Below are positions 2,005-24,144 of a stretch of DNA of 45,108 nucleotides, piece after piece. Position numbers and translations under genes: made by a program. The stretch comes from an uncultured Porphyromonadaceae bacterium (GTDB lineage Bacteria > Bacteroidota > Bacteroidia > Bacteroidales > Muribaculaceae), in contig CAMWUY010000003.1 of assembly GCA_947177615.1 (NCBI GenBank), forward strand, positions 1-45,108, in the 5' to 3' direction. Below the pieces are notes generated by a model. It was not told the DNA's origin, did no database searches, and saw only the letters and a program-made list of their open reading frames with translations. Numbering within the stretch: position 1 is the stretch's first letter; each line of letters starts with the position of its first letter.

Positions 2005-2006
2005 GA

Positions 2007-5239: not shown

Positions 5240-7048
5240 CTATATTTCATTGATTGCATTTTTATGATTATGCAGTCGACGAAGACTGTCAGCTAATTGT
5301 GTCGCTTTCATAATTGAATCCTTTTGGAATTGCAGATATTTTAGTCGTCGTTCTTCCTCTTCCTTTTCCAGCTTTTTCTTGGTGGCTACATCATTAGCTA
5401 ACGTGAAAAATGATGATGGCAGGTAGGTTATATATTCCGTCGTGAGTCTGACAATTCCATTCTTGAAAGTCCATTCATATATGGTATTATCAGGATAAGA
5501 GTTATCGTCATAATATGCTCTATCACGTATGATCTCCGGTTCTCCATATTTCCTTTTATATAACTTCACAAAATCATCGTAATCTTCAAAAGACCAATAC
5601 GGAGAAACATCTGATGGAGTAATAACAATTGCATAGACCTTGTCCTTTACACCAAATATTCTAACACTTACCTCGTTATTATCAATTGTTGTGTTAAATT
5701 TAAGCAGTTTGCCTGTTAGATAATGATATTCCGTAGAATCTTCGGGGGCATAGCTCTCATCGGCCTTGGTTAAGGTTTCTATTACTTCATTATTTTCTCG
5801 GAAACGCGTATAAAAATATTTTTCTATAAAATCATTTGCATATCGATTGGATGATGAATCCGACTCAACGATAGTTTTAGCGTAGCCGATCGCGGTATCC
5901 CAAGAAATACCTAATTTTATATCCTTAAATGATAAATCTTTTACTATAGTTGCTCGAGATGAAATAAGAGCATCATTACGTTCCTTCAGTGATACCATTT
6001 GTGCCCTTATATTCGCTTCTCTTTGTAAGAAATTTTCTTCTTGAGTCTTATGCTTTATGGTAGGATAAATGAATATGCACGCCTCCGGTATCATCATTAA
6101 GAATAGTGATAAGAGACAATACTTTATCTTCAATTTTAATCCGGAATGATTTTTGCAAAATTCAATTGCGCAACCTATGGGGCATGCAAAAAAGATAATT
6201 CCGGCTAAAATACTGAAGAAACTTGGGCTTTCTAATGTGTTATGAGTGAATTGATACATTTCAGCTGCTCCAACATGAGACAGTCCTTCTGCATATTTAG
6301 GTTGCCAATCTCCAAAATAGTTAAAAGCAACCCATCTGAATCCGGACCCTTGGAAAAAGAATGACAATAGTACATTTACACAATAAGCAACTATAAATGG
6401 GAATCCGACTGATGCAATGTCACTTTTCCTCTTTTGATTATTTGCATTATTAATCATTCTGAACCAATAGCCACAATACCACATTTGCATAATGCCCATT
6501 ATAACCAGAATAAAGAACATCCACCATCCATAAAAGAGGTAAAGCCCGTATAATAGTGTACTTATACTTACAGTGAGTATGCCTGCAATTAGTATTCGGG
6601 TGTAATTCTTTATAATACTTCCAAATGTTGCGATTACATTTCTGTAAAAGGACCGATTATGAGATGACGAGGTATTAGGATTTTTGCATGGATGTGGATT
6701 ATTAGGATTAATGAAATCATAATAATCTTTCTTGTTGCAAGATCCGATAGCGATAGCTACACTATAAAGAACCGCAGAGTATTCTTTTCCCTTACCCGGA
6801 TTTAACTTGTTTTCCTTATTAACTAAATGATTGATTTCAGTTTTAGTTTTCTTTGAATTTCCTTTAATGGCAACGAGTTTGGAAATATATCCGGTATTAA
6901 GACAACGTTTGAATATGTCTTTAAGGACGTATTCATTACCAAACGAGTAGCTATCAGACAGAATATACCAAAACTTAGGATCAGAAAGTATATTAATCCC
7001 ATAAGCTTTTACTATCTTTGAAACTGTATCAATCAGACTCAAATACAT
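5240..7048 (-). CDS. Polytopic membrane protein with N-terminal shared helical domain and C-terminal FxGI-type domain
   Basis: I chose the ATG at 7048 (602 aa); a GTG at 7060 would add 4 residues. Relative to the GTG start, residues 7-107 carry the helical domain shared by seven proteins of this operon (SKIVKAYGINILSD, then WYILSDSYSF, then LNTGYIS). A linker leads to about five membrane helices (roughly 153-174, 175-197, 216-236, 281-300, 313-333). After a coiled coil (340-375) a C-terminal domain starts with IKLGISWDTA and runs to about 545. It matches the tails of the genes at 9348 and 13624 (LGI..., KYGEP..., E-rich RR tail ending NEI). The family is not recognised. It probably links the cytosolic adaptor network to the membrane. 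Confidence 0.8.
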   Translation of the reverse strand: MYLSLIDTVSKIVKAYGINILSDPKFWYILSDSYSFGNEYVLKDIFKRCLNTGYISKLVAIKGNSKKTKTEINHLVNKENKLNPGKGKEYSAVLYSVAIAIGSCNKKDYYDFINPNNPHPCKNPNTSSSHNRSFYRNVIATFGSIIKNYTRILIAGILTVSISTLLYGLYLFYGWWMFFILVIMGIMQMWYCGYWFRMINNANNQKRKSDIASVGFPFIVAYCVNVLLSFFFQGSGFRWVAFNYFGDWQPKYAEGLSHVGAAEMYQFTHNTLESPSFFSILAGIIFFACPIGCAIEFCKNHSGLKLKIKYCLLSLFLMMIPEACIFIYPTIKHKTQEENFLQREANIRAQMVSLKERNDALISSRATIVKDLSFKDIKLGISWDTAIGYAKTIVESDSSSNRYANDFIEKYFYTRFRENNEVIETLTKADESYAPEDSTEYHYLTGKLLKFNTTIDNNEVSVRIFGVKDKVYAIVITPSDVSPYWSFEDYDDFVKLYKRKYGEPEIIRDRAYYDDNSYPDNTIYEWTFKNGIVRLTTEYITYLPSSFFTLANDVATKKKLEKEEEERRLKYLQFQKDSIMKATQLADSLRRLHNHKNAINEI

Positions 7049-7063
7049 AGCTAACCTCACAAA

Positions 7064-8239
7064 TTATTTGAAATAGACCTCTGAACTCATGTCCTCAATC
7101 CCGGTCTCTGCTTTAGCCAGTGCGATTGCATTTATGAAACTGTTGGCATCCATTGTGTCAAATTGAGATGCACCTCTGACCATTCTTAGTGCATCGACAC
7201 GCGGCCAATCATAATAGTTTAGCATGGGATTGACTGTTCTCATACTGAGTTTTGAGAACTTGTCACGTTCAAATTGAATCCAGATTAGGCCATCTCTTTT
7301 CCCTTCAAACCAGACAGTTACTCGTTGAGTACGGATATTGATAGCTGCGTTGAACAGCGAGGCAGCGACATAATAAATCATACTTACGATGGTCTCGGTC
7401 TTGAACTGTGTCATTTCTTTAACGAGCTTGTCTTTGACCGAAATCTTACCCGTTGAAAGAATATTAGTCTTATTAGCAGGAAGATTCATGTCTCCATGAA
7501 ATTCAATATCAGTGTTGAGTAATCCGGATTTTTCATCATAATCACAGGAGATTTCAACTCGATATGGAAGAGAAAGCTCACCGAGAATCATTCTTATATT
7601 CCTTTCGGTCACATTCGTCTCACCATTGATATAGTCCTCAATTTCCTTCTTCTGTAGTTCGTATTCTTTCTGAAACGTAGCGTTCGCACGAGCCTCTTTT
7701 TCATCTTGCAGCTCACTGAAAAATGATTGAATTTCCTCGTAGGCGCGGAGTCTGGCCGTCATTGCATCTTTCTCATGTTCATTGACGAATGTTATCCGCT
7801 CTTTTCGCTTATCATCGTATAGGTCAGCGAAGCGAATTTCAGCCTCCGCTTCAAGTTCACGACGTACATCCTCCCTCATCGGACGAGATAGAGGGAAGTC
7901 CTCCCTTTCGTACTGCTTGGGAGATAGAGCATCAATCTTCTTCTGATGTTCTGAAAGCTTTTGCATTCTCGCAGCCTTTTTATGCATTGCTGTGAACGCG
8001 GCATCTCTCTTTTCAAAAGCAGCCACCATTTTTAATGAAATATCGCTTACCGTCGGCTTATAGTTAGTATCGCGTTTGGCACTGTTTTCTTGGCTTGAAA
8101 AACGAGAACCATTGACCATCACCTCATAGTTGCCAAGACTATCAACCTGCACAGTGGCAGTTCCACCGTTAAAACGGTAGCTCTTGCTTATTGCCGCTAT
8201 ATGGGAATTAACCCTAGGAAATATAGTTTGTTGTATCAT
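7064..8239 (-). CDS. Uncharacterised coiled-coil protein
   Basis: The protein has 391 residues. No family is recognised. Residues 1-60 look like a small beta-rich segment (RFNGGTATVQVDSLGNYEVMVNG). Residues 70-205 are strongly charged and helical, a likely coiled coil rich in E, K and R. The C-terminal 180 residues look like a mixed alpha/beta domain with hydrophobic strands (VTVWFEGKRDGLIWIQFERD). There is no signal peptide or membrane span. The start overlaps the stop of the upstream gene at 8236 as ATGA, so the two products are probably made together, and the next gene follows after about 15 nt. A structural or adaptor role is only an inference. Confidence 0.75.
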   Translation of the reverse strand: MIQQTIFPRVNSHIAAISKSYRFNGGTATVQVDSLGNYEVMVNGSRFSSQENSAKRDTNYKPTVSDISLKMVAAFEKRDAAFTAMHKKAARMQKLSEHQKKIDALSPKQYEREDFPLSRPMREDVRRELEAEAEIRFADLYDDKRKERITFVNEHEKDAMTARLRAYEEIQSFFSELQDEKEARANATFQKEYELQKKEIEDYINGETNVTERNIRMILGELSLPYRVEISCDYDEKSGLLNTDIEFHGDMNLPANKTNILSTGKISVKDKLVKEMTQFKTETIVSMIYYVAASLFNAAINIRTQRVTVWFEGKRDGLIWIQFERDKFSKLSMRTVNPMLNYYDWPRVDALRMVRGASQFDTMDANSFINAIALAKAETGIEDMSSEVYFK

Positions 8240-9345
8240 ATCATCCGGTTGCTGTTAACTTGATTGAGAACGTTCATGACGAACCATGCGTCAAAACCTT
8301 GGAAGACCGTACGCCTTGGCTTTGCTTCTTCTTTGTGAACTTCAAGACCATCCGAATAGGGGGTGACACCAACAAGTCTTGAATACGGAATTTTCACACT
8401 CGCCGTAGGGCAATGAAAGAAGAGGTGCTTATTGGTCACGACGAGAGAACCGACACCAACTTTGTCCATATGGCTTCTTTCAACAGGATGACCTTTGAAC
8501 GAACCGGTACGGTAGGTGACGCCTTTACATATTCGATAACTCATACCGCGGCTACCCCCAACATATTCGCGTGTAATTTTCTCTTGAAACAATGTCACAT
8601 TGTCATAGACCCAAAGCGCACATTCTCCTCGACCTAACATTACCGGTACTGTAAGTGGCTTTTGTGGGAGGACACCACTCTGCAAATCTTTCAGTACGAT
8701 AGCCTGACCAATACGTGCCAGACTCTCACTTTGATATTGCATAGGGAGGCAGTTAAGAGCAATCCCAAGGGATGATGTGTATGATTCTATCAGCTGCTGT
8801 TCATTATCGGCCAACCATCCATCTGCCATAAACTTATCAGCCGCCTTATTCAAGACATTGTAATAGGCTTCATCTTTCTTTTGTTGGCTTAATGGAAGTA
8901 CAGATGTCACGGAGTCAGTACTGATTTTAATTTGACTCAATGATACTCCTTTAGCAAAGAAGTCCACTACATATCCCTGAAACATCTTCATTGCTAAAGC
9001 ATCCATATCGTCTTTTTCATTTAATTTCGCGTATGGAATTACAATCGCATTTAGAAATGCTTTAATTCTGGGTAATGTGTCAGTTGGGTAAGGACGTTTT
9101 AGAGAGTCTCCAAAAGCCTTAATTGCAGTAATCGCCACAGTTGCAATATCCTCATCAGATAAGAAATATGGCAGTCTGTTCTTTGTCAGTTTTGCTCTCA
9201 AATCGTCAGCTGATACGCTTCCACTGAAGTATCTACGCATAAGGTCACCCATTCCCTTAAGTCCACGCTCATGCTTTTCCTCACATTCTTTATGAACACG
9301 AGAAAATAATCCGGCCGATTGTCCACAATACCTACACGTTCCCAT
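8236..9345 (-). CDS. Zinc-ribbon protein with C-terminal PH-like domain
   Basis: The protein has 369 residues. The N-terminus MGTCRYCGQSAGLFSRVHKE holds a CxxC pair (C4, C7) with H18 and C21 completing a likely small zinc finger. The middle (about 30-230) is helical. From about residue 245 there is a beta-rich module ending in a helix (GSLVVTNKHLFFHC, then KIPYSRLVGVTPYSDGLEVH, then FVMNVLNQV) that looks like a bacterial PH domain. The gene starts 2 nt after the previous stop and overlaps the next gene by 4 nt. A decayed copy of its first 50 codons lies at 12637-12807. The exact function is unknown; binding to membrane or partner proteins is plausible. Confidence 0.8.
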   Translation of the reverse strand: MGTCRYCGQSAGLFSRVHKECEEKHERGLKGMGDLMRRYFSGSVSADDLRAKLTKNRLPYFLSDEDIATVAITAIKAFGDSLKRPYPTDTLPRIKAFLNAIVIPYAKLNEKDDMDALAMKMFQGYVVDFFAKGVSLSQIKISTDSVTSVLPLSQQKKDEAYYNVLNKAADKFMADGWLADNEQQLIESYTSSLGIALNCLPMQYQSESLARIGQAIVLKDLQSGVLPQKPLTVPVMLGRGECALWVYDNVTLFQEKITREYVGGSRGMSYRICKGVTYRTGSFKGHPVERSHMDKVGVGSLVVTNKHLFFHCPTASVKIPYSRLVGVTPYSDGLEVHKEEAKPRRTVFQGFDAWFVMNVLNQVNSNRMI

Positions 9346-9347
9346 AA

Positions 9348-10319
9348 TCAGATATCGTTAAGAGATTGCTCTCGTATTTTCTGTTTTCTTATTCGTTCTT
9401 GCTCTTCCTTCTGTTTTCTAATACTCATCTCTTCCTCGCGCTTCTTCTGCTTTTCTGCTAATAAGGCGGCATCTTTCTTACGTCGTTCTATTAAATCCGA
9501 CTTTATTAATTGGGGATTTGAGTATGAATATTTTAATTTCACACTACCCCAAACTCCGTCTTCCCAAAATCGCTTAAGTTTTATCTCAATATCACATAAT
9601 CCAATTCGCCAGCTTGTAGATTTGCTATTATTAGGGGAATATTTCTCCACATACAATCCTTGAATGTCTTTATAGACTTTATCAATCTCACCTCTTGAAC
9701 TGTGATTATTGGGAAATGTTACCACAATATTTTTTACTACAGAAGAAAACTCATAAGTGTAGAATTCTATCTTTACATCTTTATATGATAGAAAACTTTG
9801 TATCTTGAATGTTTTAGAAGCGCTACCAGGAACAATTCTTGCAGATCTTCTTTTTAGTTCATCAGCAAAAATCTCAATAGAACTTCCCAAAGTTATACCT
9901 AAAAATTTAACTGTCTCAACATGATTCGAGAGTTGTGATGAACTCTCATCATTATTATGTTTAGTCACTGAATCTTGCTGTCCATTCGGAATTTTAGGTA
10001 TCTCTATATTTACGTTTGGTAAATTTCTTTCTCCATAAAGCACATTCAGAATAATACTTATCAATTCAAGTGCTTTCTTTTCATTTATACCAGTATTTTC
10101 CACAAATTGCTTCATTAACAGTTTTTGACGTTCTATGCCTTGGCAATTTGTATATTCTTTCAAAGAAAGTTCAGAAAGAAGTAATTTATATATTACCTTG
10201 TATGCCGGAACTTCTTTGAAGGCTCCATAGTCGGCTAATATGGATATAATCCTTTTTTCAAAAAGTATCTCCATTCCGAAATCATTGCATACTTTATCTA
10301 ATGCACTTCTTAAATCCAT
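9348..10319 (-). CDS. Adaptor-like protein: shared helical domain plus FxGI-type C-terminal domain
   Basis: The protein has 323 residues. Residues 1-100 are the operon's shared helical domain (LDKVCNDFGMEIL, then ISILADYGAFKEVPAYKVIYKLL). After a polar linker, a beta-rich domain begins VKFLGITLGSSIEIFADELK (about 137-156) and is followed by a long E/K/R-rich coiled coil ending LNDI. A domain with an F-x-G-I-x-L start and a charged tail is common in Bacteroidetes proteins of unknown role. The same two-domain layout occurs in the gene at 13624, and with membrane helices in between in the gene at 5240. There is no signal peptide, so it is cytosolic. Function unknown; a scaffold is inferred. Confidence 0.8.
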   Translation of the reverse strand: MDLRSALDKVCNDFGMEILFEKRIISILADYGAFKEVPAYKVIYKLLLSELSLKEYTNCQGIERQKLLMKQFVENTGINEKKALELISIILNVLYGERNLPNVNIEIPKIPNGQQDSVTKHNNDESSSQLSNHVETVKFLGITLGSSIEIFADELKRRSARIVPGSASKTFKIQSFLSYKDVKIEFYTYEFSSVVKNIVVTFPNNHSSRGEIDKVYKDIQGLYVEKYSPNNSKSTSWRIGLCDIEIKLKRFWEDGVWGSVKLKYSYSNPQLIKSDLIERRKKDAALLAEKQKKREEEMSIRKQKEEQERIRKQKIREQSLNDI

Positions 10320-10322
10320 AAT

Positions 10323-10541
10323 TCAATACATTAAAGATTTCTTATCATTCTTCCTCCAGCCTGCAAGATATTCTTTATCGATGAAGAATACTTTGAGGTC
10401 AGCCTTGTATTCGGCATCTACCACGAACACCTTTACATCAGCTTGATATTCGTGCTCAACCGAGTAAACCTTCTGTCCGAAAGCTACGGCTACTTTAACA
10501 ACCGAGAATATTAAAATCAATATAAAACCTTTCATTGACAT
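10323..10541 (-). CDS. Small secreted septoil-knot / DUF6150-like protein
   Basis: A 72-residue protein; an ATG at 10535 is an alternative start that removes two residues. A signal peptide (about residues 3-22, ending VAVAFGQ) precedes three tandem units of about 13 residues each: KVYSVEHEYQADV, KVFVVDAEYKADL and KVFFIDKEYLAGW. The C-terminus RKNDKKSLMY matches what I know of the DUF6150 / 7(1) septoil knot family of Bacteroidetes. Typical members have more units, so this one is short. It lies 3 nt after the FtsK-like gene and 3 nt before the next gene, so it is a real operon member. Secretion to periplasm or surface is likely; role unknown. Confidence 0.75.
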   Translation of the reverse strand: MSMKGFILILIFSVVKVAVAFGQKVYSVEHEYQADVKVFVVDAEYKADLKVFFIDKEYLAGWRKNDKKSLMY

Positions 10542-10544
10542 AAT

Positions 10545-12596
10545 TCAAGCATTTAAAATTGATTCAAGTGTAATGGTGTTAACAAGAACCACACGTGGTT
10601 TTCCCCCATTTGATGGGCCTACTATGCCAGCAGTTTCAAGTTGATCCATTATTAAACTAGCTCGATTATACCCAATACTATATTGACGTTGAATAGAAGA
10701 GGTACTTGCTCTATAGGATGTTACTACGAATCTCGCTACTTCATCAAAAAGCGGATCTTTGTCAAATACAGAGAGTGCTGTTGGTGCTATTGTATCATAT
10801 AATTCTTTTTCAGGAAGGATATACTCACTTCCTGTAAGATTTCTTTGATTTATCTCGTTGATAATAATCTCAAGATGTCTGGGCTCAAAATTTGAGGTTT
10901 GGCATCTGCGAACTCCATTGTCCTTGACCACGAGAACGTCTCCCTTATCAAGTAAGTTTGTAGCATCAATTTTACCCATAGCCAATCGACTCTCATTAGG
11001 CAAATTTATCCTAAAACAAATCTTGTTAGGCAGATAACTCCGAATCAATGGAGTTAGAGACTCTGCTGAAGTATATCGAGTTGTGAAAATAAAATGAACT
11101 CCTACACCCTTCGTCTTTTCAAACATCTGAGATAACGTATCATCCCATTCTTTACCATTAAAGAATGGTTGTATTTCGTCCACAATACATATCAGTCGAG
11201 GCAAATAATGATGTCCATCTGCTGGATTTAATGTACTGTTCACATATTGGTTATTATATTCATCGATAGATTTAACCCTCGCTAACTGTAACAATTTTAT
11301 TCTTTGTTCCATCTCCTCCGTTAGACATACGAATGTTTGATACAAATCTGGTCGTTCAGTTATCAAACCTTCTACATCATTTGAATGCGCAAAGTAGTCC
11401 TTCGGGAGGTGAGAGAGTTCATATAACTCTAATTGATTAGAATGAACAATGATAAATTTCAGATTATCAGGAGAAACCTTAAAAATCAAGGATGCAACAA
11501 TTTGATATACTAAAGTAGTTTTACCTTGTTCCAAACCTCCACATATAAGCAAATTACTTAATTCAGCGAGGTCTTCACAGATAACCTTTGACGTAGAATC
11601 TATACCGATTGCTACAGGTAGAGTATGATTTGACGTATTGAACTCTTTTGAGTTGAATATATCCCCCGGCATAATATTATCATCTTCTATCGGATTAGGT
11701 ATCTCGAATCCTATTGCCAACTTATTGCGTAACGGATTGATAATACGACACCCACGATACCCTATAGCTAAAATAATATCCTTCTCATTACGTGCTAACT
11801 TTGCCAATTTTGTAGGTGCTACTTGAATTTCATATAACGAACTGCGAGGTCCGGGAATTATATTTATAATTTTACCATCAACACCATACCCACTTAGAAC
11901 CCACTCTAATCTTTTAACCGTTGGATTAAGACTATTATAATCTGGTAATGATATTCCACGTTTTATTAATATGCTTGTTTCAGGTAATCTATATGAAGCG
12001 TAAGGCGCTTTATATTTAGTAGAAACTTGCGTCGTTATTGCATCTTTCTTTTTCAATATCTGTGGTTCTACTACTGTCTTATTCACATTGATAAATGAAT
12101 GTATATCTGAAGTCGTACACTTGCCAAATCCTAACAGAATGTTGGCCATTACTTGTCTTACAAGTTCCTCTTTGTATCCGAACTGATTCGATATACGATT
12201 GCAAGCCTTCTCTATCTCATTACTCCAGTTAGTTGTGTTTGGAAGATTAATGAACGTTGAATAAATTCCCTCGGAATATAAAACTTTAACAATTGCACGG
12301 GCAGGATAGCAATCTTCAAATGCTTTGTAGTCACCCAACGCATTAAGGACAGCCTGCGAACGTACGAAGTCTTCACCACAATCCATCCTCAGTTTGAATA
12401 TAGCCAAAGCAAGCGGGAACTTTGTCAGCTCACTATAGTACAGCTCTTCATGGGTTGAAGTTTCATCGGTTATTGAGACAGAATCATAAGGTGGATGTAC
12501 GTTATTTGTATATCCACTTTCCGTATCCATTTTAGGTGTAGTATTTAAGGATACTTGCTCTTGTTTACGGAAAATATTCCTAATCTTATTCCACAT
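10545..12596 (-). CDS. Soluble FtsK/SpoIIIE-type ATPase with gamma domain, carrying the shared helical domain
   Basis: The protein has 683 residues and no membrane spans. Residues 58-160 are the shared helical domain (LRMDCGEDFVRSQAVLNALG, then YKAFEDCYPARAIVKVLYSE). An FtsK alpha/beta motor follows, with Walker A GGLEQGKT (353-360) and Walker B LICIVDE (468-474). The C-terminus (612-672) is a recognisable FtsK gamma winged helix (YRASTSSIQRQYSIGYNRAS, then GIVGP). In housekeeping FtsK this domain reads KOPS sequences on DNA. Normal FtsK has four N-terminal membrane helices, which are replaced here by the adaptor domain. It is therefore a specialised, probably DNA-translocating motor of this system rather than the cell-division protein. 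Confidence 0.92.
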   Translation of the reverse strand: MWNKIRNIFRKQEQVSLNTTPKMDTESGYTNNVHPPYDSVSITDETSTHEELYYSELTKFPLALAIFKLRMDCGEDFVRSQAVLNALGDYKAFEDCYPARAIVKVLYSEGIYSTFINLPNTTNWSNEIEKACNRISNQFGYKEELVRQVMANILLGFGKCTTSDIHSFINVNKTVVEPQILKKKDAITTQVSTKYKAPYASYRLPETSILIKRGISLPDYNSLNPTVKRLEWVLSGYGVDGKIINIIPGPRSSLYEIQVAPTKLAKLARNEKDIILAIGYRGCRIINPLRNKLAIGFEIPNPIEDDNIMPGDIFNSKEFNTSNHTLPVAIGIDSTSKVICEDLAELSNLLICGGLEQGKTTLVYQIVASLIFKVSPDNLKFIIVHSNQLELYELSHLPKDYFAHSNDVEGLITERPDLYQTFVCLTEEMEQRIKLLQLARVKSIDEYNNQYVNSTLNPADGHHYLPRLICIVDEIQPFFNGKEWDDTLSQMFEKTKGVGVHFIFTTRYTSAESLTPLIRSYLPNKICFRINLPNESRLAMGKIDATNLLDKGDVLVVKDNGVRRCQTSNFEPRHLEIIINEINQRNLTGSEYILPEKELYDTIAPTALSVFDKDPLFDEVARFVVTSYRASTSSIQRQYSIGYNRASLIMDQLETAGIVGPSNGGKPRVVLVNTITLESILNA

Positions 12597-15392: not shown

Positions 15393-16801
15393 CTTCTGAA
15401 AATTGGCATCACTTCATCGTGACGCTCGATGATTAATGATATGAGATATTCTATAATCGCTTTGTTCTTTCGACAAAGAAGTGATGTAGCTCTATTACCG
15501 TACATATCGCCTTGCGTAGAATAGTTTCTTACAGGGTCGGCACCGCAATACTGTTTCAGTGCGCAATCCGAGCATCCGGCAAGAGCCTCATTTGCCCATA
15601 CATTGGCAATCTCTTTAGCTTTCTTTCCAAAGACAAGGTCTTCGTATTTATCATCAACACTGCCAAGTCGGAAAGTGTAATCATTGAACTCTGCAAGCAT
15701 TCTTGATTCGTCCGAACAGTACACGCCACCATCATAATTATAAATTAGGACGGAGTTAATAACCCCCGCCGGAGATTGGAGGTCAACAAAACCGGTGCAA
15801 TACGGGGTAAGCATTTTTCTCAGAACAATAGCGGCAAACTCTTCTACAAAATAGGTTCCCTTTTTATTAAGTTCCAAGATATGCTCAAAAGCCTTCTTAT
15901 AGAAGTCAATGAATCGGTCTGTATATTCACTCCAATTATCATTATGAGTCGCAAGACCGTATGGATTCAAGGCCCGAAGGAACATCGCATGAAAACCGAG
16001 CTTTACATATTCATCAACTATCTCAATGGGATAATTCAGACCTTCAACCGAGGTAGTCATCAATGCTGAAACCTTCTCATTCCCCACAGCCTGACGTCCT
16101 CTCTCAATACCGGCGACAACTCTCTCGTAACTATCTTTCTTGCCACGATTAGCATTATGTAAAAAGGCTGGACCATCTAATGAAGTAGAAATAACCACAC
16201 CATATTTCTCACAAATGTCTAACATCCTATCTGTAAGATGAATACTGTTTGTGCATAGCACATAGTGTATTTCTTTCTGTTCTGTTTTGTTGATCTCCTC
16301 CGCAAGCTGTATTCCATACTCAAAAATATCGGGAACGAGAGAAGGCTCCCCTCCTTGAAATTCCATTGTTATTGAGTCGGAAGGTGAGCGGAACATCAGT
16401 TCGACAGACTTCTCCATAGTCTCCTTACTCATTGTGCATCCATTGCTTTCCTCGTTCTGACTTGAAGCCTGGCAATACACACAATTCTGATTGCACCGGA
16501 GTGTCAAAACAAAGATATGAAGCCCGGTCCATGATTCCAAAAACCGTTTCTTCTCCCTCAGACGTTCAGCATATATCTCTGCCAATGGTGGTACTATTTG
16601 TTCAGAGATGAAGAAATTAGCAACAAGCGATTTATAAAGGTCATCTTTGGGTAAAGATCTGTCCACTATCTTCTGCACAGTCCCCTTTGGGGATATAATC
16701 ATATCTCCTAATTCATTTACCAATACTTCTTTCCCAGAGATCTCAGTAAAGTCAAACGGCAAAAGATAATATTCCTTATCAGTCATGTATATCCTCTTCA
16801 C
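15380..16801 (-). CDS. hxsB: His-Xaa-Ser system radical SAM/SPASM maturase HxsB
   Basis: The protein has 473 residues. The N-terminal region (YYLLPFDFTEISGKEVLVNE) fits HxsB. The radical SAM motif is CNQNCVYC (C103, C107, C110), with EFQGGEP downstream. The C-terminal SPASM region has many cysteines (CSDCALKQYCGADPVRNYST and a final LLC). SPASM enzymes modify peptide side chains or form crosslinks using extra Fe-S clusters (family knowledge). The annotated start overlaps hxsD by 23 nt; a second ATG at 16786 would shorten the overlap to 8 nt. The expected substrate is HxsA, encoded two genes upstream. Confidence 0.93.
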   Translation of the reverse strand: MKRIYMTDKEYYLLPFDFTEISGKEVLVNELGDMIISPKGTVQKIVDRSLPKDDLYKSLVANFFISEQIVPPLAEIYAERLREKKRFLESWTGLHIFVLTLRCNQNCVYCQASSQNEESNGCTMSKETMEKSVELMFRSPSDSITMEFQGGEPSLVPDIFEYGIQLAEEINKTEQKEIHYVLCTNSIHLTDRMLDICEKYGVVISTSLDGPAFLHNANRGKKDSYERVVAGIERGRQAVGNEKVSALMTTSVEGLNYPIEIVDEYVKLGFHAMFLRALNPYGLATHNDNWSEYTDRFIDFYKKAFEHILELNKKGTYFVEEFAAIVLRKMLTPYCTGFVDLQSPAGVINSVLIYNYDGGVYCSDESRMLAEFNDYTFRLGSVDDKYEDLVFGKKAKEIANVWANEALAGCSDCALKQYCGADPVRNYSTQGDMYGNRATSLLCRKNKAIIEYLISLIIERHDEVMPIFRSWVS

Positions 16802-17084
16802 TTAAATCTTCATCCTCAGCAAAAGCTTTGGCATAGAGAATTGTTTTAATATCGCGAGTCTCGTCCGCTACAATTTGGCGTAGTTTGAAGTCGTTAAGTG
16901 TCTGCATCAGTCTTGTTTCCAATTCAGTTTCACTGATATCAGTTGCTGAGTTAGCAGTGATTGTAACAGACTCAGTATTGTTATCAGAAAGACTACGTTC
17001 GATTAGATAATCTCCCGATAACCAATAAAGAGCTTTAGATATCACGCTGTCATTATATATTCGTCTATCTATCGTTATAGTCAT
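16779..17084 (-). CDS. hxsD: His-Xaa-Ser system protein HxsD
   Basis: The protein has 101 residues, close to the usual HxsD length. It starts MTITIDRRIYNDSVISKALY (a beta strand then a helix, as in HxsD) and ends in an acidic tail (EDEDLSEEDIHD). It lies between hxsA and hxsB, with a 4-nt ATGA overlap with hxsA. Assignment rests on size, the start pattern and this gene order. HxsD has no known enzymatic activity; a recognition or chaperone role for HxsA maturation, similar to RiPP recognition elements, is plausible but unproven. Confidence 0.85.
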   Translation of the reverse strand: MTITIDRRIYNDSVISKALYWLSGDYLIERSLSDNNTESVTITANSATDISETELETRLMQTLNDFKLRQIVADETRDIKTILYAKAFAEDEDLSEEDIHD

Positions 17085-17998
17085 TTTGTGTATGATTTAA
17101 GCTTCGTCAAAGTTGTGGCATTCAGTTCACCGCTTGGCTGTATGCCATGATATGCTTGAAATGCCTTCAATGCGGTATGAACATCTTCTGTAAAGACATA
17201 GTGCGAGCCGCTCTTCTTTAACTTGGCAGGGTCGGGAGAATATCCTGTGTTAATCAGAAGTTTAATCAACTCATCTACATCAAAACCGGATGTTTCGGCT
17301 GAAGCAGACATATCACGGAAGCCTAAAGGTATCGTGGTTTGTGAAGCACTCCATGATTTCAGTTTCGTTACCACCTCAGAAGTCAATTTGCCATCCTGAG
17401 TCAGACCGGCATCTTTTTGGAAATGCTTGACAGCATTAACAACGTTGCTATCATATACATAATAGCCACCTTTCTTTGATACGACTCCATCTTTGAGATA
17501 GTAGTAGCGCACGAGGTAGGGCACCAATTGGTCAACATCAGAACCATGAATACCGGTGGACAGAGTGCGGTCTCCGAGCGAGTAGTCACCTGCTGTCTTT
17601 GCTGGAGGAGTATATACTGATGACCGACTTCCACTACCATAAGAACTTGAACTGTGGGAATAGTGAGAACCACCACCGGAACTGCGATGGCTGCTATGAC
17701 TGCGATGGCTGCTTGAACTTGAATGTGAATAATGTCCACCACGTGAAGAACGGTGAGAAGAGTGAGAACGATGACCGGCAATCAATTTGGCATCTCCGTT
17801 TCTCATTATCTTATACACATTCTTGACTATTGGCTGCTGTCCTTTTGAAACTTCAGGAGTTGCACCTCCATTCGGAAGTCCAAGATTTAAATCCAAAGAT
17901 AAAGATTTCTTTGCTTCTGCTTTTGCCGAGCCTTGGAACAGTGCGACAGTTGCAGACAGCAATAATGTCTTTATTATCCTTTTTGACTTATTCTTCAT
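17081..17998 (-). CDS. hxsA: His-Xaa-Ser repeat protein HxsA with two peptidoglycan-binding domains
   Basis: I chose the ATG at 17998 (305 aa), which overlaps the previous stop as ATGA; an upstream start at 18028 would only add 10 residues. A signal peptide ends near residue 27 (FQGSAKAEA). Residues 76-118 hold ten H-x-S triplets (HRS, HSS, HRS, HYS, HSS, then the same order again) in two copies of a module of about 20 residues separated by glycines. Two PG_binding_1-type domains follow, with VVNAVKHFQKDAGLTQDG and VHTALKAFQAYHGIQPSGEL. This is the presumed substrate of HxsB/HxsC, exported and anchored to the cell wall. Its final function is unknown. Confidence 0.93.
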   Translation of the reverse strand: MKNKSKRIIKTLLLSATVALFQGSAKAEAKKSLSLDLNLGLPNGGATPEVSKGQQPIVKNVYKIMRNGDAKLIAGHRSHSSHRSSRGGHYSHSSSSSHRSHSSHRSSGGGSHYSHSSSSYGSGSRSSVYTPPAKTAGDYSLGDRTLSTGIHGSDVDQLVPYLVRYYYLKDGVVSKKGGYYVYDSNVVNAVKHFQKDAGLTQDGKLTSEVVTKLKSWSASQTTIPLGFRDMSASAETSGFDVDELIKLLINTGYSPDPAKLKKSGSHYVFTEDVHTALKAFQAYHGIQPSGELNATTLTKLKSYTK

Positions 17999-19683
17999 TT
18001 CGCATTCTCCTTTATGAATTTCAACCAATAATTATCCGGCACGACTTTAATCATCTCATTCAGTTCTGCTTTTCTTGCCTCGGACAGCTTCCCTTGATGA
18101 GTATAGATATCATTTAACAGTTCATCCACTATTTCTGTAGTTCGTTTTGCTAAATCTGAATCTATCTGTTCTGATAATGATTTAAATACCTGTTCAGAAT
18201 TTCCACCAAGTACAAGATTTGCTGGTAACGCGAGAGTTAATGATTTTGCCTGTGCAACCTTTTTTGATTCGAGAAGCGGACGTACTTTCTCCTCCCAATT
18301 CGCAATTATCTTGTCAGATGCCTCTACGGCTTTAGCGCGAGCCTCTGATTTGTAACTTGAGGATGAATACGAAGCGGTGTAATCATGTTCGGCTTTCTGA
18401 AATAAATCTAAAGCTGTTGCATAATTGCCTTGTTCATACTCAGAGTTTGCGGATGCTATCGTCGCTTCATAAGCCGCCCTTGCATCGGCTGATGTCGTAT
18501 ATGAGATACCTTGCCAACCGCCAATTAAGAGAGCAACTCCGGCGACAGCGCTTACAACTACATTTCGCTTTTTACGCTTTGAAGCTCTTTCCTCACGATC
18601 CTTTGATAATTTATCATTCTCATCATTACACCATTGCTCCATATTTTTACCGAGCAATGAACCAAGATTAATGAGTTTGCGGCGAATGTCTTTAAGAGAG
18701 ATATCTGAAAAGTCTATCTCTCCGGAGTTAGTCGAACGGTCAAGTTCAGATAATCTTGAAAGATAATCATTTTTTAATTGGTCAAGAACGCCGTTGCGGG
18801 CAGAAGCAGGCGAACTCTTGGATGCTAAAAAGTCACTCTTGGTTTTGTCTATCCAGGATTGCCGGTTTTCTTTCCGTTTGTTTCCAATGATAATTATCTT
18901 CTTCTCGATTGATTGTAAATCAGAAACTACATCTGTTGCGAATCTTGCAGACCTAAGGCCGAATTCGTCATCCTCAACTACAAGTCCTTTCTCCATCAGG
19001 GCTTTATAATCCCTCTCAAGAGTTGACATTACATCATCAAGAGCTTGTTTTAATTGAGCTGTTGTAGGTCTGTTCTTATTCTCAACCTTACTCTTTTCGG
19101 CTGTAAGCCATGAGTCAATATTAGATTCTCCAACCTCTGTCGCAATAAGCCGAATTTTAGCATCAATTACATACAGTTGAGTATTAGCCTCTGTAGAATA
19201 GTAACCATACTTATGACCATACTCATCCGTTGTAATTGTTAGCAGTTCAGAAAGTGCCGCAATATATTCTTGCTTTAACGCATAAAGCAGTTCCTTCGGA
19301 TCTTTTATTCTATATCCGGACGCTGTTGTAGGCTTTGTTTGAACTCCGTTCTCAATCTTTGGCAGTTCATCAATTAAGCCAACGCTATAAAGCAACTGTG
19401 CAGCAATTTTATTAATGAGTTCATCCTTATATCCGGATTTAGCAGCATAATCGCTTACACATTTACGGACTGAATTCTGCCAATTAGCATCTTTCTTTTC
19501 AGAAAGTTTGTATAGTAGTTCTCCGAAGCCACTATCCAATAGCCCCTTCATAACTTTCTTGGACGCCGCAGGTTCATCTTTAAACCCGCCAACATCGTCA
19601 AGCAAATTGACAAATTGGCGAGTTGATAAAACCTTGGTTCCAAATCGGCTGATAATATCTTTTATAGCTTTACTCAGTTCCAT
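17995..19683 (-). CDS. Membrane protein: shared helical domain, three internal repeats, one membrane span, TPR-like end
   Basis: The protein has 562 residues. Residues 1-104 are the shared helical domain (IKDIISRFGTKVLSTRQFVN, then LLDDVGGFKDEPAASKKVMK). Residues 131-200, 215-285 and 298-360 look like three related helical repeats (L..dY...L.EL..., I..KI..., W...EKSK). A basic stretch (364-374) precedes a single membrane span (374-392). The C-terminus begins with a TPR-like hairpin (YEQGNYATALDLFQKAEHDY, 416-435) and is probably extracytoplasmic. It starts inside the PP2C gene (14-nt overlap) and couples to hxsA. It could join the cytosolic phospho-switch to secreted HxsA (inference). Confidence 0.8.
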   Translation of the reverse strand: MELSKAIKDIISRFGTKVLSTRQFVNLLDDVGGFKDEPAASKKVMKGLLDSGFGELLYKLSEKKDANWQNSVRKCVSDYAAKSGYKDELINKIAAQLLYSVGLIDELPKIENGVQTKPTTASGYRIKDPKELLYALKQEYIAALSELLTITTDEYGHKYGYYSTEANTQLYVIDAKIRLIATEVGESNIDSWLTAEKSKVENKNRPTTAQLKQALDDVMSTLERDYKALMEKGLVVEDDEFGLRSARFATDVVSDLQSIEKKIIIIGNKRKENRQSWIDKTKSDFLASKSSPASARNGVLDQLKNDYLSRLSELDRSTNSGEIDFSDISLKDIRRKLINLGSLLGKNMEQWCNDENDKLSKDREERASKRKKRNVVVSAVAGVALLIGGWQGISYTTSADARAAYEATIASANSEYEQGNYATALDLFQKAEHDYTASYSSSSYKSEARAKAVEASDKIIANWEEKVRPLLESKKVAQAKSLTLALPANLVLGGNSEQVFKSLSEQIDSDLAKRTTEIVDELLNDIYTHQGKLSEARKAELNEMIKVVPDNYWLKFIKENAK

Positions 19684-20914
19684 TGTTTAACTCATTATCG
19701 CCATGAGTCGTTTCGATTGATGATTCTTCTTCGGAGACAACACTATTCTCAGAATCTGAATTATCTTCGGTTGAATCACGACCATTTAACTCTCTCAACA
19801 AGGAGTCAAGCCTACCTTGCAGTTTTGTACGATTTTCGATTGCTCTTTTCTCATCAGCATTGGCATATTGCAGGTCTATCATGTTCTGACGTGTCGGACG
19901 TTCAACAGATTCCAAGGATTGCTGAATCTTGTTGGCCTTTTCAATTTTAGCAGACTCATCGGCAATGGATTTCTTTACATTGGATACTTGCCATTCAATC
20001 ATCTTGGGAACGGCCGACTTTACCTTGTCAAAATCAAATACCATTGCGATAGACATGTCATCCTGACTACCTATTTTGCTAAGCTGCGGGAGCGTTGTTT
20101 CTATCTCAGATAATGTCGCAACATAGCCTGACCTTGCTATTGATTTCAAAATCTGAACATAAAAGTTCGCTTGATTCTCTTCTGAACCAAAAGAATCATC
20201 TATGCCATCAGAGCCAAGGATTACAGCGACAGGAGATTGCCCGTTACCTTCATAACAATACCTGAATTCATCAATAGCACCGCTATCGCAAATTGAAGTT
20301 GTCTTGTTAAGAAAACAGCGCTCATCCCACGGGATCGGTTCACTCCAATTCCCTGTCGAATCACAAGCGAAACATTTTCCGTCACCAATCTGGAAAGCAA
20401 GCCAAAACTCGGGGGTATAGGCATACACAATCAACGTACAGCCATAGACCTTCTCCAAATTGACATTCTCTTCAAACTCTTTTATCCAACGCTCTTCCAA
20501 TCCTTCTTTTTCCAATTCGGAAATCGGATTTTGCGTTGCATGAGCCAAGACTTTTGCATTCCACTCATATATTATTGAGCCAAACAGTTGTCGGAATGCC
20601 CGTTCGATATTACTTGTCTTATCGAAATCCTGATTGGATATCTGTTCAGATATGGTTCCATGTTGAGTGAACGGTTCACTCTTTAACAAGGAGAGCCCGA
20701 CTTCCTCTATGAAAGCCTTGACCTTATGCTCTGTCACTTCGGCCGCAATCTTCGCTCCTGTGTCACTGCGAAAATAACGCTTTCCGCCATGACCGTCACA
20801 GACAATAGCTATGGCATTACCGTTCTCATAGACGTTGCTATAAGAATAGTCCTGACAGACCTTGCCTGTTGCGATATGACTTTCGCCTTGACAGCTGAAG
20901 TTTAATGAGTCCAT
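19670..20914 (-). CDS. PP2C-family protein phosphatase of a TerY-P triad
   Basis: The protein has 414 residues. PP2C metal-binding motifs are visible: VCDGHGG (D40, G41), QIGDGKCF, LGSDGIDDSF and the final QDDMS. These make it a likely active Mn/Mg-dependent Ser/Thr phosphatase. After about residue 300 a coiled coil (KIEKANKIQQSLESV and RLDSLLRELN) is followed by a Ser/Glu/Asp-rich tail. It lies between the vWA gene (10 nt upstream) and the membrane/TPR gene. Kinase, vWA and PP2C genes in a row form the TerY-P triad described in tellurite-resistance-type systems; the phosphatase reverses the kinase there (family knowledge). Confidence 0.92.
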   Translation of the reverse strand: MDSLNFSCQGESHIATGKVCQDYSYSNVYENGNAIAIVCDGHGGKRYFRSDTGAKIAAEVTEHKVKAFIEEVGLSLLKSEPFTQHGTISEQISNQDFDKTSNIERAFRQLFGSIIYEWNAKVLAHATQNPISELEKEGLEERWIKEFEENVNLEKVYGCTLIVYAYTPEFWLAFQIGDGKCFACDSTGNWSEPIPWDERCFLNKTTSICDSGAIDEFRYCYEGNGQSPVAVILGSDGIDDSFGSEENQANFYVQILKSIARSGYVATLSEIETTLPQLSKIGSQDDMSIAMVFDFDKVKSAVPKMIEWQVSNVKKSIADESAKIEKANKIQQSLESVERPTRQNMIDLQYANADEKRAIENRTKLQGRLDSLLRELNGRDSTEDNSDSENSVVSEEESSIETTHGDNELNNGTE

Positions 20915-20924
20915 TTGCTAATGT

Positions 20925-21665
20925 TTAATCCCAATCGTCATCATACGAGCTGCTGTCAACAGCGGTTGCCGCTTCTGCTCCTTGTATGTTCTCGACTGCA
21001 TCCTTAACTTCTTCTACTACCTGATCCTGTTTAGTCGTGTCACCAGCAGTGCTGCTCTTGCTGCCAATCTGAGAAGATGTTACAGCGACTACGCGGATTA
21101 TCTGCTTGAGAGCGTCGATATTGTGAACTGTAAACACGGCTTCGCTATTACCTGCGAACTGCTTGAGCACGTCCTTGTCTGCATCATCGCCGATTGCAAT
21201 GGCAATCTTGATAGCGGCTTTGAACCAATTGTTCCCTTTCAGTTTATTGAGACCGCTCTCATAATCGTCAGTAGGACCACCATCAGAGAGAAGAATGATA
21301 GCAGGAGCAAACGAGCCGCTCGCAGACTGCATATATCCGCTGCGCGAGAGTTTCGTGGAAAGTTCTGCACATGCAGCTCCCAGAGATGTCAAACCTCCGG
21401 CCTTTACATCTTGCCATACAAAGTCTGAGGCAAGCTTGGGCTCAGAATAAAGCCAGTTGACACCACTTGAAAATTCAAGTGCTGCAACTTTGATTTCGGC
21501 ATCGGGATTTTCTGCTGATATTTCATCAAGCATGGGAAGTACGTTGGCTACAGCATCATTGACTGCACCAATCTTGTTTCCTTCCATCGAACCGGATGTG
21601 TCGATAAGAAAGAAGAGGGTCATTGTTCGGCGTGGTACGCTTACTTGTTCATCTAAGAGTGACAT
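20925..21665 (-). CDS. terY: TerY-like von Willebrand factor A domain protein
   Basis: The protein has 246 residues. The vWA MIDAS is intact: DTSGSM (D22-M27), a later threonine in AGGLTSLG, and an ILLSDGGPTDDY aspartate motif. The sequence between (KIGAVNDAVANVLPMLDEIS, then AALEFSSG) is of the TerY type. The last 40 residues are acidic and end DDDWD. The usual C-terminal TerY-C zinc ribbon is absent; a separate gene at 24148-24507 encodes that ribbon. It sits between the kinase and PP2C genes. vWA proteins of such triads are thought to bind partner proteins in a metal-dependent way (family knowledge). Confidence 0.92.
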   Translation of the reverse strand: MSLLDEQVSVPRRTMTLFFLIDTSGSMEGNKIGAVNDAVANVLPMLDEISAENPDAEIKVAALEFSSGVNWLYSEPKLASDFVWQDVKAGGLTSLGAACAELSTKLSRSGYMQSASGSFAPAIILLSDGGPTDDYESGLNKLKGNNWFKAAIKIAIAIGDDADKDVLKQFAGNSEAVFTVHNIDALKQIIRVVAVTSSQIGSKSSTAGDTTKQDQVVEEVKDAVENIQGAEAATAVDSSSYDDDWD

Positions 21666-21679
21666 ATCTTGTTTTGTTG

Positions 21680-22951
21680 TTAATTGTTTGTTTCCTGAAT
21701 AAATTCTCCTTTGTGAGTGTTGGAGAAAGTTATTTTGATTCCGGGATTAACCGGCATCATATTGTTGGGTTCAACTACCTTTATTTTCCCGCTTGGAGTT
21801 TCTGCCGTCCAATTCGAGTTGGACAGATTTTTGAGAAGGAGCTTTGACGGGTCATTAGGATGGGCAACCACTTCGGCATCAGGTATATTGTCATTGTCAA
21901 TATATACTTTCGTACCTTTGGTAAGAATCACAGAGCGGGTTCCAATCTTTAGTCGGTGTGTTGAATCAATGTCTTTTCCGCAATCCATACACTTTGAAGA
22001 CTCCTCTATGAAGGTTTCCTCGCCACAGTGAGGGCAACGCACCAATGTATCACGTATGCCAGCAATGAGCTTCTCCCACAGAGATTCAATCATTCGGGTG
22101 TTAGGATTTTTGAGTTTATCCTGTGAGAACTCCTGTATGAAGGTCTCTCTAAGCTTGGCAGGAAACGCCGGCCAACGTCGTATGACGTTTTGGTGAATAC
22201 CGCGCACGGGGAGATTGCTCTTGTCCGCTGGGTCATAGATAAATATAGCCTCTGTACCGTAGAACTTTTTTTCAAACGTCTCTGTCATGCAGGGGCAAGC
22301 GACAACCTTTGCTCCTTCAAAAGGATGATTGGCGTAGAAAAGCATAAATAGAATGACAGACAAAGAGAACCGATCGCTATACTTGTCTGGAACTCCACCT
22401 GCAACAATCTCAGGAGCCATATAGCGGGCTTTACCCATTATACCGGACTTTTCTCCCTGGGGCATTACATTATCATTGTCACAGATGAGAACGTCACCGG
22501 TAGTTGGATCGATAAAGAAGTTGCCGTCGTTGAGGTCTTGATAGCTGTATCCGCAACGGTGAAGCATCATGAAGCCGTTGCATATCTTCATTGCAGCAGC
22601 AAGCATAGCTGAATATGAACGGAATGATTTTTTTGCAAGGAGAAAGTTCCCGAACTCAAAGTAGTTTTGAGGACGAAGCTTCATCACATATCCATAGCTC
22701 CCTTTCTCTTTTCGTGTAAGATACTCAGGCCATAAGAATGCAGCAGAAGGGGCGCCACTCATGATGTTGTGTTCGAGATTTTTGTAAAACTTATCATCGG
22801 GAGCGTTTAAATACCACTTTAAGGCTTTTTTCTCTCCGTTCAAATCAACAAGGTAAACTATACCTTGTCCGCCACGACCAAGTTCCTTTTCAATCGTGAC
22901 ATAGCCTCCGGAAGTGAGGCTGACTTTATCTCCTTTTTTTAGTTCTGCCAT
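21680..22951 (-). CDS. Eukaryote-like protein kinase with zinc ribbon, TerY-P type
   Basis: The protein has 423 residues. The glycine-rich loop is GRGGQG (25-30), the likely ATP-binding lysine is K45 (ALKWY), and the catalytic loop is YSYQDLNDGNFF (D139, N144). The metal-binding motif is DND (158-160) instead of DFG, and MAPE (178-181) is the APE motif. After the kinase core come a zinc ribbon (C306, C309, C321, C324) and a beta-rich end (339-418) that could be an FHA-like or OB-fold domain. The architecture fits TerY-P kinases. It ends 14 nt before the vWA gene. Probable substrates are operon proteins (inference). Confidence 0.9.
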   Translation of the reverse strand: MAELKKGDKVSLTSGGYVTIEKELGRGGQGIVYLVDLNGEKKALKWYLNAPDDKFYKNLEHNIMSGAPSAAFLWPEYLTRKEKGSYGYVMKLRPQNYFEFGNFLLAKKSFRSYSAMLAAAMKICNGFMMLHRCGYSYQDLNDGNFFIDPTTGDVLICDNDNVMPQGEKSGIMGKARYMAPEIVAGGVPDKYSDRFSLSVILFMLFYANHPFEGAKVVACPCMTETFEKKFYGTEAIFIYDPADKSNLPVRGIHQNVIRRWPAFPAKLRETFIQEFSQDKLKNPNTRMIESLWEKLIAGIRDTLVRCPHCGEETFIEESSKCMDCGKDIDSTHRLKIGTRSVILTKGTKVYIDNDNIPDAEVVAHPNDPSKLLLKNLSNSNWTAETPSGKIKVVEPNNMMPVNPGIKITFSNTHKGEFIQETNN

Positions 22952-22953
22952 TA

Positions 22954-24144
22954 TTAAGAGTTTAATTGTAATCCATAACCTAAAAACGCGAGGACAGTAT
23001 TCATTTCGTCCTCATCATGATTAATTGTTGGAGAGATGTTGTGTTTTACATCTTCCAAAAATGAGTATCCTGTATCAGGTTCTATGAGTCGGCTCATATA
23101 ACCATGTTGTTGCATGTGTTCATATATTGATATGATATTGGGATACTCCCTTGTGAATTTGTAATCTTTTAAAAGATTGATAAAAACTCGATAGGTCAAG
23201 ATGTCTTTACCATGCTCAGCAACAATGGCTCGAATCTGGCTTGCATATTCATTTGATGATAGATTTACATCGATGATTCGTTTCGATAATCCAATAGGAT
23301 ATGTTTTCAGATCTTGCTGGAACCGACGTAAGGATTTAAATAAAGTATCTACGGTTTGACCCGAAGCAGCCACAAACTGCATTTCAAAACTACCACTATT
23401 TAGTCTAAAAATTCTATGGCAGTAAACTGGAGTTGAGGGATTATTCTTGTATCTTCGATCCGGTCCCCCATTAACTCTTTGATGTAAATACTCATAGAAA
23501 ACCGGAGAAGCTCCTCTAATTAATCTACCTGATTGCTCTGTCACATAAATACATTCATCATTAGTTAGCTCTATATTGTGATAGTCTAATATATGATATG
23601 TACAGTTAATTTCAGCAATCACAAAATTTGGATAGAAGAACATTTTGCATCCCTTACACTTTAGTAGAAATGAAAAGTCAGAATATATAGAAATATCCAT
23701 AAACCTTCTTTCCTCAAATGAAATGTTGTGACGAGTCAGAGAAGAACTGTTACACGAAACACCTTTCAATAATTCATCGTTACTCCAGATTGAGGCCGAT
23801 GTGATTGCTTGATTAAAATTAGATTTAAACTTACTAAACGCATTAATAATATTGGGGCTCAGGCTTTGCATTGCCAATATCTGAGAAATAGCATCTTTTA
23901 GTAACTCATCAATCTTTTTCTCCTCTGTAGTTATTGAAAGATTATATTTCGAGATAAGATCTTCATAAAACAATCTCTTATTCTCTCTCCGTAATTTAGT
24001 TTCTTTTATTGTCTTTACTGACCAACTAATTAAAAACGACAGACCAATTCCCAAGCCGATAATAGCTGCAACAGCACCAATGGCAATAAGAGCATAGCCA
24101 ATGATGAAAAGGATAATTAGACCAATAACACCAGAATTTTTCAT
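22954..24144 (-). CDS. Membrane protein with GGPDRR-type domain and C-terminal shared helical domain
   Basis: The protein has 396 residues. One or two membrane helices lie at about residues 5-45. A helical region follows, then a beta-rich central domain with the motif GGPDRRYKNN (about 230-240), which I have seen in many uncharacterised bacterial proteins. Residues 298-396 form the shared operon domain, here at the C-terminus (IRAIVAEHGKDILTYRVFIN, then LLKDYKFTREYPNIISIYEH). It starts 3 nt after the operon's first gene and ends 2 nt before the kinase start. It could be the membrane sensor or anchor for the triad (inference). No enzymatic motif is seen. Confidence 0.8.
   Translation of the reverse strand: MKNSGVIGLIILFIIGYALIAIGAVAAIIGLGIGLSFLISWSVKTIKETKLRRENKRLFYEDLISKYNLSITTEEKKIDELLKDAISQILAMQSLSPNIINAFSKFKSNFNQAITSASIWSNDELLKGVSCNSSSLTRHNISFEERRFMDISIYSDFSFLLKCKGCKMFFYPNFVIAEINCTYHILDYHNIELTNDECIYVTEQSGRLIRGASPVFYEYLHQRVNGGPDRRYKNNPSTPVYCHRIFRLNSGSFEMQFVAASGQTVDTLFKSLRRFQQDLKTYPIGLSKRIIDVNLSSNEYASQIRAIVAEHGKDILTYRVFINLLKDYKFTREYPNIISIYEHMQQHGYMSRLIEPDTGYSFLEDVKHNISPTINHDEDEMNTVLAFLGYGLQLNS

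Follow-up and report, generated by a model that had tools for sequence, protein, structure and literature searches.

Several described bacterial systems share features with the locus considered here. Effector-associated domains (EADs), as treated by Kaur et al. (2020; PMC7159879), exemplify, in the passages of that paper available to us, the logic of one domain being fused to many proteins of a single system. TerY-P triads are presented in the accessible excerpts of PMC10889362 as anti-phage in Pseudomonas aeruginosa PAO1 and in those of PMC11090510 as frequent companions of CoCoNuT systems, with FtsK-superfamily ATPases and restriction systems also found near them, and a His-Xaa-Ser system, HxsABCD, is mentioned in the available part of PMC9062424. 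The stretch analysed here (the window) comprises positions 1 to 45,108 of contig CAMWUY010000003.1 (contig C3 of GCA_947177615.1, a 2.2-Mb assembly, 82% complete) from an uncultured Porphyromonadaceae bacterium of the gut. According to its map of open reading frames (ORFs), the minus-strand genes from 24507 to 5240 form one long operon-like array which, as annotated from sequence, is a TerY-P triad (Ser/Thr kinase, PP2C phosphatase and TerY-like vWA protein) joined to a His-Xaa-Ser radical-SAM cassette, and seven of its proteins share a domain of about 100 residues. This domain family is real and apparently undescribed, and we consider it reasonably likely that it serves TerY-P signalling systems as an adaptor, which would make its variable carriers clients of the kinase/PP2C/TerY-vWA switch.

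A first-pass annotation, made from the sequence alone, had claimed that one domain recurs in seven proteins of this operon. The seven ORFs that it listed were all confirmed on the minus strand, start positions included, and leave-one-out profiles, each built from six copies and searched against the stop-to-stop frames of at least 50 amino acids (aa) in all six frames of the window, recovered every held-out copy (7/7). The E-values, by gene, were 1.5e-9 (5240), 2.5e-10 (9348), 3.6e-13 (10545), 1.4e-14 (12842), 8.3e-17 (13624), 2.0e-16 (17995) and 6.6e-8 (22954); the best non-member in any run had an E-value of 0.021, and the window kinase, TerY and PP2C proteins were not recovered as carriers by these profiles in the window frames. 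When two domain profiles were run against 5064 reversed or shuffled proteins, the best E-values were 0.10 and 0.12. The alignment of the seven copies (A1) has 16-27% identity to its first row, with G15, L28 and D30 as invariant columns. A search of the genome from which the window derives returned these seven copies and an eighth, weaker one on contig C93 (G000:C93:884-1174), whose frame looks split between two overlapping ORFs.

All on the minus strand, the copies occupy 6722-7039 in a 606-aa membrane protein (gene 5240-7060), N-terminal to several transmembrane (TM) segments predicted from hydropathy; 12102-12413 in an FtsK-like protein (gene 10545-12596); 19357-19683 at the N-terminus of a 562-aa single-TM protein (gene 17995-19683); and 22957-23250 at the C-terminus of a 396-aa protein (gene 22954-24144), following its N-terminal TM segment(s). 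Three more, found by profile search, are N-terminal in proteins of 323 aa (10047-10319; gene 9348-10319), 257 aa (13310-13615; gene 12842-13615) and 297 aa (14203-14517; gene 13624-14517). The placement proposed earlier, N-terminal in six proteins and C-terminal in one, thus mostly holds, with the qualification that the FtsK copy lies near the N-terminus, at about residues 65-158. The description of the carriers as otherwise unrelated was partly right: a second region, C-terminal to the domain, is shared by the 297-aa (13849-14130, minus strand), 323-aa (9633-9911) and 606-aa (5534-5755) proteins. Direct single-sequence matches between the 13624 and 5240 proteins are weak (E 5e-4 to 3e-3), and the 9348 protein joins them only upon iteration. 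The C-termini of proteins with this second region often resemble one another in a short motif, judged by eye as hydrophobic-x-[DN]-x-[ILV] or a near variant, with NLDSI, SLNDI, AINEI, AINDI and SINKI as examples from the ends of the window proteins 13624, 9348 and 5240 and of carriers in loci L050, L053 and L220.

A profile search for a named family together with fold prediction, the check that the first-pass annotation had suggested, returned no family match and confident helical models. AlphaFold2 modelled the copy of the 562-aa protein as a helical bundle, with a mean predicted local distance difference test score (pLDDT) of 87.5, a predicted template modelling score of 0.74 and helices at 3-14, 16-20, 23-30, 39-50, 53-62, 68-83 and 87-101. 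Two larger alignments were assembled: A3, of Bacteroidota type, with 34 segments (three belonging to a record titled proteobacterium), and A5, with the 22 other segments. The A5 model (pLDDT 90.8) likewise consists of seven helical elements, placed almost as in the model of the 562-aa copy. A3 and A5 match in profile-profile comparison across 104 columns (probability 97.3%, E 2.5e-11), an agreement that is not wholly independent because the A5 rows were gathered with profiles descended from Bacteroidota copies, the alignments used for the models being separate; the A5 profile also matches one copy of genome G797 at an E-value of 1.2e-5.

Pfam-type scans of the window proteins and of the A3 and A5 segments revealed no curated family for the domain. 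The 34 A3 segments match 21 Pfam families at E ≤1 and the 22 A5 segments match 11 at E ≤0.5, none of them an EAD, and a profile-profile comparison with one EAD1 sequence, weak as a single-sequence comparison, gave a probability of 0.7%. The Death-like superfamily is characterised, in the available part of PMC8195603, by a common six-helical bundle fold; structure comparison of the domain models identified no clear solved relative. No description of the domain was found in the open-licence literature, in a search that did not reach the 2012 Ter paper, which may describe some of these neighbourhoods.

The association of the domain with TerY triads was assessed across loci and genomes. A scan of genome contigs with a TerY alignment returned at least 71 loci; among the matches listed, to which all locus counts below refer, close TerY relatives account for 49 loci (L060-L108; best-segment identity 45-96%), and the remaining 22 (L109-L130), distant-vWA loci, served as controls. 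Together with two loci from viral contigs, the close relatives make up a triad-type set of 51 loci, 50 of which have at least two triad genes called. With the iterated profile, the domain was detected in 28/51 triad-type loci versus 0/22 controls; with a profile frozen before the loci were fetched, it was detected in 20/51 versus 0/22, one of the 20 (L062) being the same contig as a seed locus. All three triad genes were called in 44 loci, 27 of which carry the domain, and when loci were collapsed at 80% TerY identity it was present in 11 of 22 clusters (Fisher p 2e-4). Domain genes lie on the TerY strand in 49 of 49 cases, at a median distance of 1.7 kb, the corresponding figure for other unassigned genes being 351/526. 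Across 297 sampled family genomes, with the domain called at E ≤0.001 (22 genomes) and TerY at E ≤1e-25 (17 genomes), 12 have both features, 10 the domain only, 5 TerY only and 270 neither (Fisher p 4e-12), and all 12 co-positive genomes hold a domain copy and a TerY match on a shared contig.

An independent locus is provided by plasmid pE2-28 of Prevotella sp. E2-28, a sheep isolate, where five copies (E 3e-21 to 4e-16, frozen profile) belong to one triad operon: the TerY_C, kinase, VWA and PP2C genes come first, and the five domain proteins are encoded in the stretch after them. FtsK is the annotation of two of the five and formylglycine-generating enzyme that of a third, and their neighbours include an annotated exonuclease, an OmpA-family protein and an M48 peptidase. 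Iterated searching added copies in bins titled Spirochaetaceae, Helicobacteraceae, Ruminococcus, Oscillospiraceae and Candidatus Roslinia, loci L089 and L094 having been found with the frozen profile already. In genomes G799-G804, the A5 profile gave 19 matches, of which 17 are the A5 rows themselves, located beside triads, and only two are further copies, both on other contigs of G804.

The proteins to which the domain is fused vary widely among relatives, and the earlier view of a small helical domain, lacking a match to any enzymatic family, that is common to co-operonic proteins was borne out and extended to variable partners. FtsK-type motors carry it in the window and in L065, L077, L131 and L220, formylglycine-generating-enzyme sulfatase (FGE-sulfatase) domains in L089 and L132, and further fusions involve TPR, Sel1 and WG repeats and RDD, DUF975 and DUF805 domains. 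In L069 and L059, it lies near the N-terminus of proteins combining DUF4011, helicase, MTES_1575 nuclease and DUF3320 regions, which PADLOC assigns to PDC-S37 (1255.4 and 1171.5 bits, respectively) and, at lower score, to Hhe (555.2 and 495.3 bits). The kinase, TerY and PP2C genes are directly upstream in L069, and a kinase and a TerY match share the contig in L059; unlike plain PDC-S37/Hhe proteins as defined in PADLOC, these two thus bear the new domain and adjoin triad genes. The link to conflict systems drawn in the first-pass annotation is upheld to this extent: the domain is tied to a triad type with an anti-phage report, as given in the accessible part of PMC10889362, and in two loci to helicase-nucleases that are defence candidates. 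Genome G797 (record titled uncultured proteobacterium RUG347; 2.9 Mb), to which L079 belongs, has 33 domain matches; in the regions examined, most carriers have Sel1-like repeats by eye, which Pfam confirmed in both of the two tested. Several TerY, kinase and PP2C genes lie on one contig of this genome.

In the window, the operon head encodes, in order, a stand-alone TerY_C metal-binding protein (24148-24507; PF15616, 45.2 bits, cut-off 28.4), the 396-aa membrane protein, a Ser/Thr kinase with a Cys-rich C-terminal region (21680-22951; PF00069, 54.2 bits), a TerY-like vWA protein (20925-21665; PF00092, 48.5 bits) and a PP2C phosphatase (19670-20914; PF13672, 97.9 bits), all on the minus strand. 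The kinase, vWA and PP2C genes are thus adjacent, as in TerY-P systems, and the TerY_C protein and the Cys-rich end of the kinase are further likenesses. With regard to the zinc ribbon that follows the kinase in such triads, Zn_ribbon_3 matches weakly (16 bits against a cut-off of 27), and CxxC pairs are visible. In contrast to TerY-P systems as described in the available passages of PMC11090510 and PMC10889362, this operon has a shared domain on many putative clients and a His-Xaa-Ser radical-SAM cassette. As a separate observation, the C-terminus of TerY proteins is an acidic tail whose final or near-final residue is Trp (SSYDDDWD in the window, 20928-20951); the tail is found in 48/53 TerY proteins versus 14/695 other genes of the 51 triad-type loci (L060-L108, L131 and L132), and it occurs with or without the new domain.

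After the triad come the genes for the 562-aa protein and for HxsA-like, HxsD, HxsB and HxsC proteins, likewise on the minus strand. We know of no function assigned to the His-Xaa-Ser radical-SAM system. HxsD (16779-17084; TIGR03976, 76.2 bits, cut-off 50) and the radical-SAM maturases HxsB (15380-16801; TIGR03978, 563.9 bits, cut-off 370) and HxsC (14514-15392; TIGR03977, 334.8 bits, cut-off 267.9) all exceed their curated cut-offs. The adjacent HxsA-like repeat protein (17081-18028) has His-Xaa-Ser runs and PG_binding_1 domains (PF01471, 64.8 bits), although it scores below the curated cut-off (TIGR03979, 32.1 bits against 121.65). The cassette thus resembles HxsABCD but differs in this sub-threshold HxsA and in being embedded in a triad operon beside the domain-bearing 562-aa TM protein. 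No paper linking TerY with His-Xaa-Ser was found in the open literature, the 2012 Ter paper lying outside that search.

When the body of the 562-aa protein was searched without its domain, homologues were found in a further 12 distinct triad loci (L050, L051, L052, which equals L062, L063, L064, L065, L070, L072, L073, L074, L076 and L192), each bearing an N-terminal domain. A 280-aa homologue (E 9e-23) covering the later parts of the body, including the TM segment, has no domain and is encoded in L190, a His-Xaa-Ser locus devoid of a triad, whose 98%-complete genome has no TerY match; this one clear case is what a plug-in model would predict. Triad loci with a strong HxsB carry the domain in 9 of 9 cases, and 12 of 13 other HxsB loci, sampled within the taxonomic order, show neither triad nor domain in the available DNA, for which reason the His-Xaa-Ser cassette is regarded as an independent module. 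Hydropathy predicts one TM segment at residues 375-394 of the 562-aa protein, after a basic stretch, and a TM region at residues 1-46 of the 396-aa protein, whose domain is C-terminal; with orientation deduced from the positive-inside rule, both topologies are consistent with a cytoplasmic domain.

The adaptor reading is preferred because the copies share a position beside a kinase/phosphatase/vWA switch and sit on such varied carriers; it draws on the homology of the copies, the confident predicted fold, the linkage to triads and the range of fused partners, with the docking step itself inferred. A helical bundle of about 100 residues would be added, usually N-terminally, to proteins of very different kinds, and in the cytoplasm it would anchor the protein bearing it to one of the triad components or to a platform that the triad forms, possibly with domain-domain contacts as well where many copies exist. 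The kinase and phosphatase would then set the state of the carrier. Within this reading, docking on the triad is preferred to a purely homotypic scaffold, at a level of belief just short of even. Putative clients in the window would be the TM protein tied to the peptidoglycan-binding HxsA module, which HxsB and HxsC would be expected to modify, further membrane proteins, the FtsK-type motor and accessory proteins, an arrangement suggestive of signalling that starts with envelope sensing and ends in a DNA-acting response of defence or stress type. It is tempting, if doubtful, to extend this to a modular trans-envelope class defined by the unnamed adaptor family, in which a peptidoglycan-bound, radical-SAM-modified HxsA would be read through a single-TM protein coupled by its cytoplasmic domain to a TerY-P switch, while the same plug would recruit interchangeable FtsK motors and Hhe-like helicase-nucleases and so mark inputs and outputs across several phyla.

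Several observations weigh against an adaptor of TerY-P systems. The domain was not detected in the available DNA of 23/51 triad-type loci, some of which are cut by contig ends, and TerY is without a match in 10 of the 22 family genomes that bear the domain. Six of these ten belong to genus g105; another, G237, has a short contig with HxsB/HxsC beside domain genes. By eye, the domain gene stands amid unrelated genes in the five g105 loci examined and in the G254 locus. A triad-type protein carries the domain only in L079, where it is fused once to a TerY-like vWA protein, ahead of the retained acidic-Trp tail. L190 remains the single clear case of a domain-less 562-aa homologue, and a weak one (289 aa, E 8e-6) occurs within a triad locus, L066, where a different protein bears the domain and Hxs genes are missing. 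Moreover, counts within Bacteroidota are not independent events. Separately, the g105 domain genes lacking a TerY match (L022, L023, L148, L151 and L152) share a C-terminal part by eye.

The first-pass annotation had instead proposed that homotypic contacts between the copies assemble the seven proteins into one complex. The architecture fits the EAD logic of PMC7159879, so far as its available passages show, up to six copies were detected in one locus (L086), and G797 reaches 33 matches. In addition, 17 of 20 copies in six multi-copy loci from records not titled Bacteroidota are matched best by another copy of their locus, own-locus best matches prevailing in L079, L084, L086, L094 and L102, opposite to the window. 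By contrast, in nine multi-copy Bacteroidota-type loci only one of 26 copies, and in the window none of seven, finds its best match in its own locus; Bacteroidota-type copies tend instead to pair across genomes by the kind of partner protein, as would be expected if each domain surface were tuned to its own place. Furthermore, exactly one domain match was found in 7 of 24 genomes searched, where the divergent A5 profile adds no convincing second copy; most of these are bins that may be incomplete, but one, Segatella baroniae B14, has a record titled complete. G800 and G803 likewise have one match each with the A5 profile. Different proteins can be joined by homotypic contacts only if two or more copies are present, so genomes with one copy speak against bridging as a necessity; there, the domain must have another partner, for which a triad protein is a plausible candidate, or associate with itself alone. 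A single homotypic complex is therefore not upheld as originally framed (7/24 genomes with a single match; 0/7 own-operon best matches), and we regard a homotypic adaptor in general as possible but unlikely. It is still less probable that the domain is a kinase substrate or ligand-binding sensor: it frequently lies beside a kinase and a phosphatase, but A3 contains no invariant Ser or Thr, only D30 being invariant and L28 nearly so. Hitch-hiking paralogy, that is, the duplication of a promiscuous helical domain inside a mobile island, without any binding function common to the copies, could account for the triad-less copies of genus g105 and for the operon on a plasmid; given the same-strand placement in 49/49 cases, the shared contig in 12/12 co-positive genomes and the fusion to unrelated proteins, it seems very improbable.

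Compared with EADs as described in the available passages of PMC7159879, the domain is likewise small (about 100 aa), all-helical in its models and apparently non-enzymatic, no catalytic Pfam family being common to its segments, and it is attached at either terminus to many different proteins within a system, frequently encoded side by side, a genome sometimes holding many paralogues. Effector-type fusions occur in L069 and L059. The core differs from that of EAD systems in being a TerY-P triad, with a core-type (vWA) component fused in one locus only (L079), and neighbouring window copies are not each other's closest kin (0/7), although copies in other loci are (17/20). By analogy, the domain would work like an EAD; it is not filed as one because this kinship mark of neighbouring copies is not seen in the window. 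Taken as a whole, the first-pass annotation was correct about a shared, small helical domain with variable partners, found no support, as stated, for the single homotypic complex and left the TerY-P triad and the His-Xaa-Ser genes unnamed.

The last stretch of the operon encodes, in order, the 297-, 257-, 683- (FtsK), 323-, 369-, 391- and 606-aa proteins. The 391- and 369-aa proteins (7064-9345, minus strand), in which the profiles detect no domain, are represented, singly or together, by homologues in the syntenic relatives L050, L051, L052 and L053. Immediately downstream (window 295-5236) lie three proteins that, judged from their sequences, are carbamoyltransferase-like, MBOAT-like and SGNH-like, and homologues of all three likewise follow the operon in L050. 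A 462-aa coiled-coil-looking protein (25130-26518, plus strand) adjoins the operon head, similar genes being present in the triad-type loci L096 and L098.

On the question of how TerY-P systems pick their clients, nothing was found in the literature passages searched. In related bacteria, the domain usually stands beside the kinase-phosphatase-vWA trio, on DNA motors, nuclease-helicases or membrane proteins, and its probable role is to connect diverse functional parts to a single signalling switch. A client plug recognisable from sequence would let a profile search list candidate inputs and outputs of TerY-P systems in any genome. Such a plug would also connect TerY-P with His-Xaa-Ser systems and make the switch testable with small soluble fragments.

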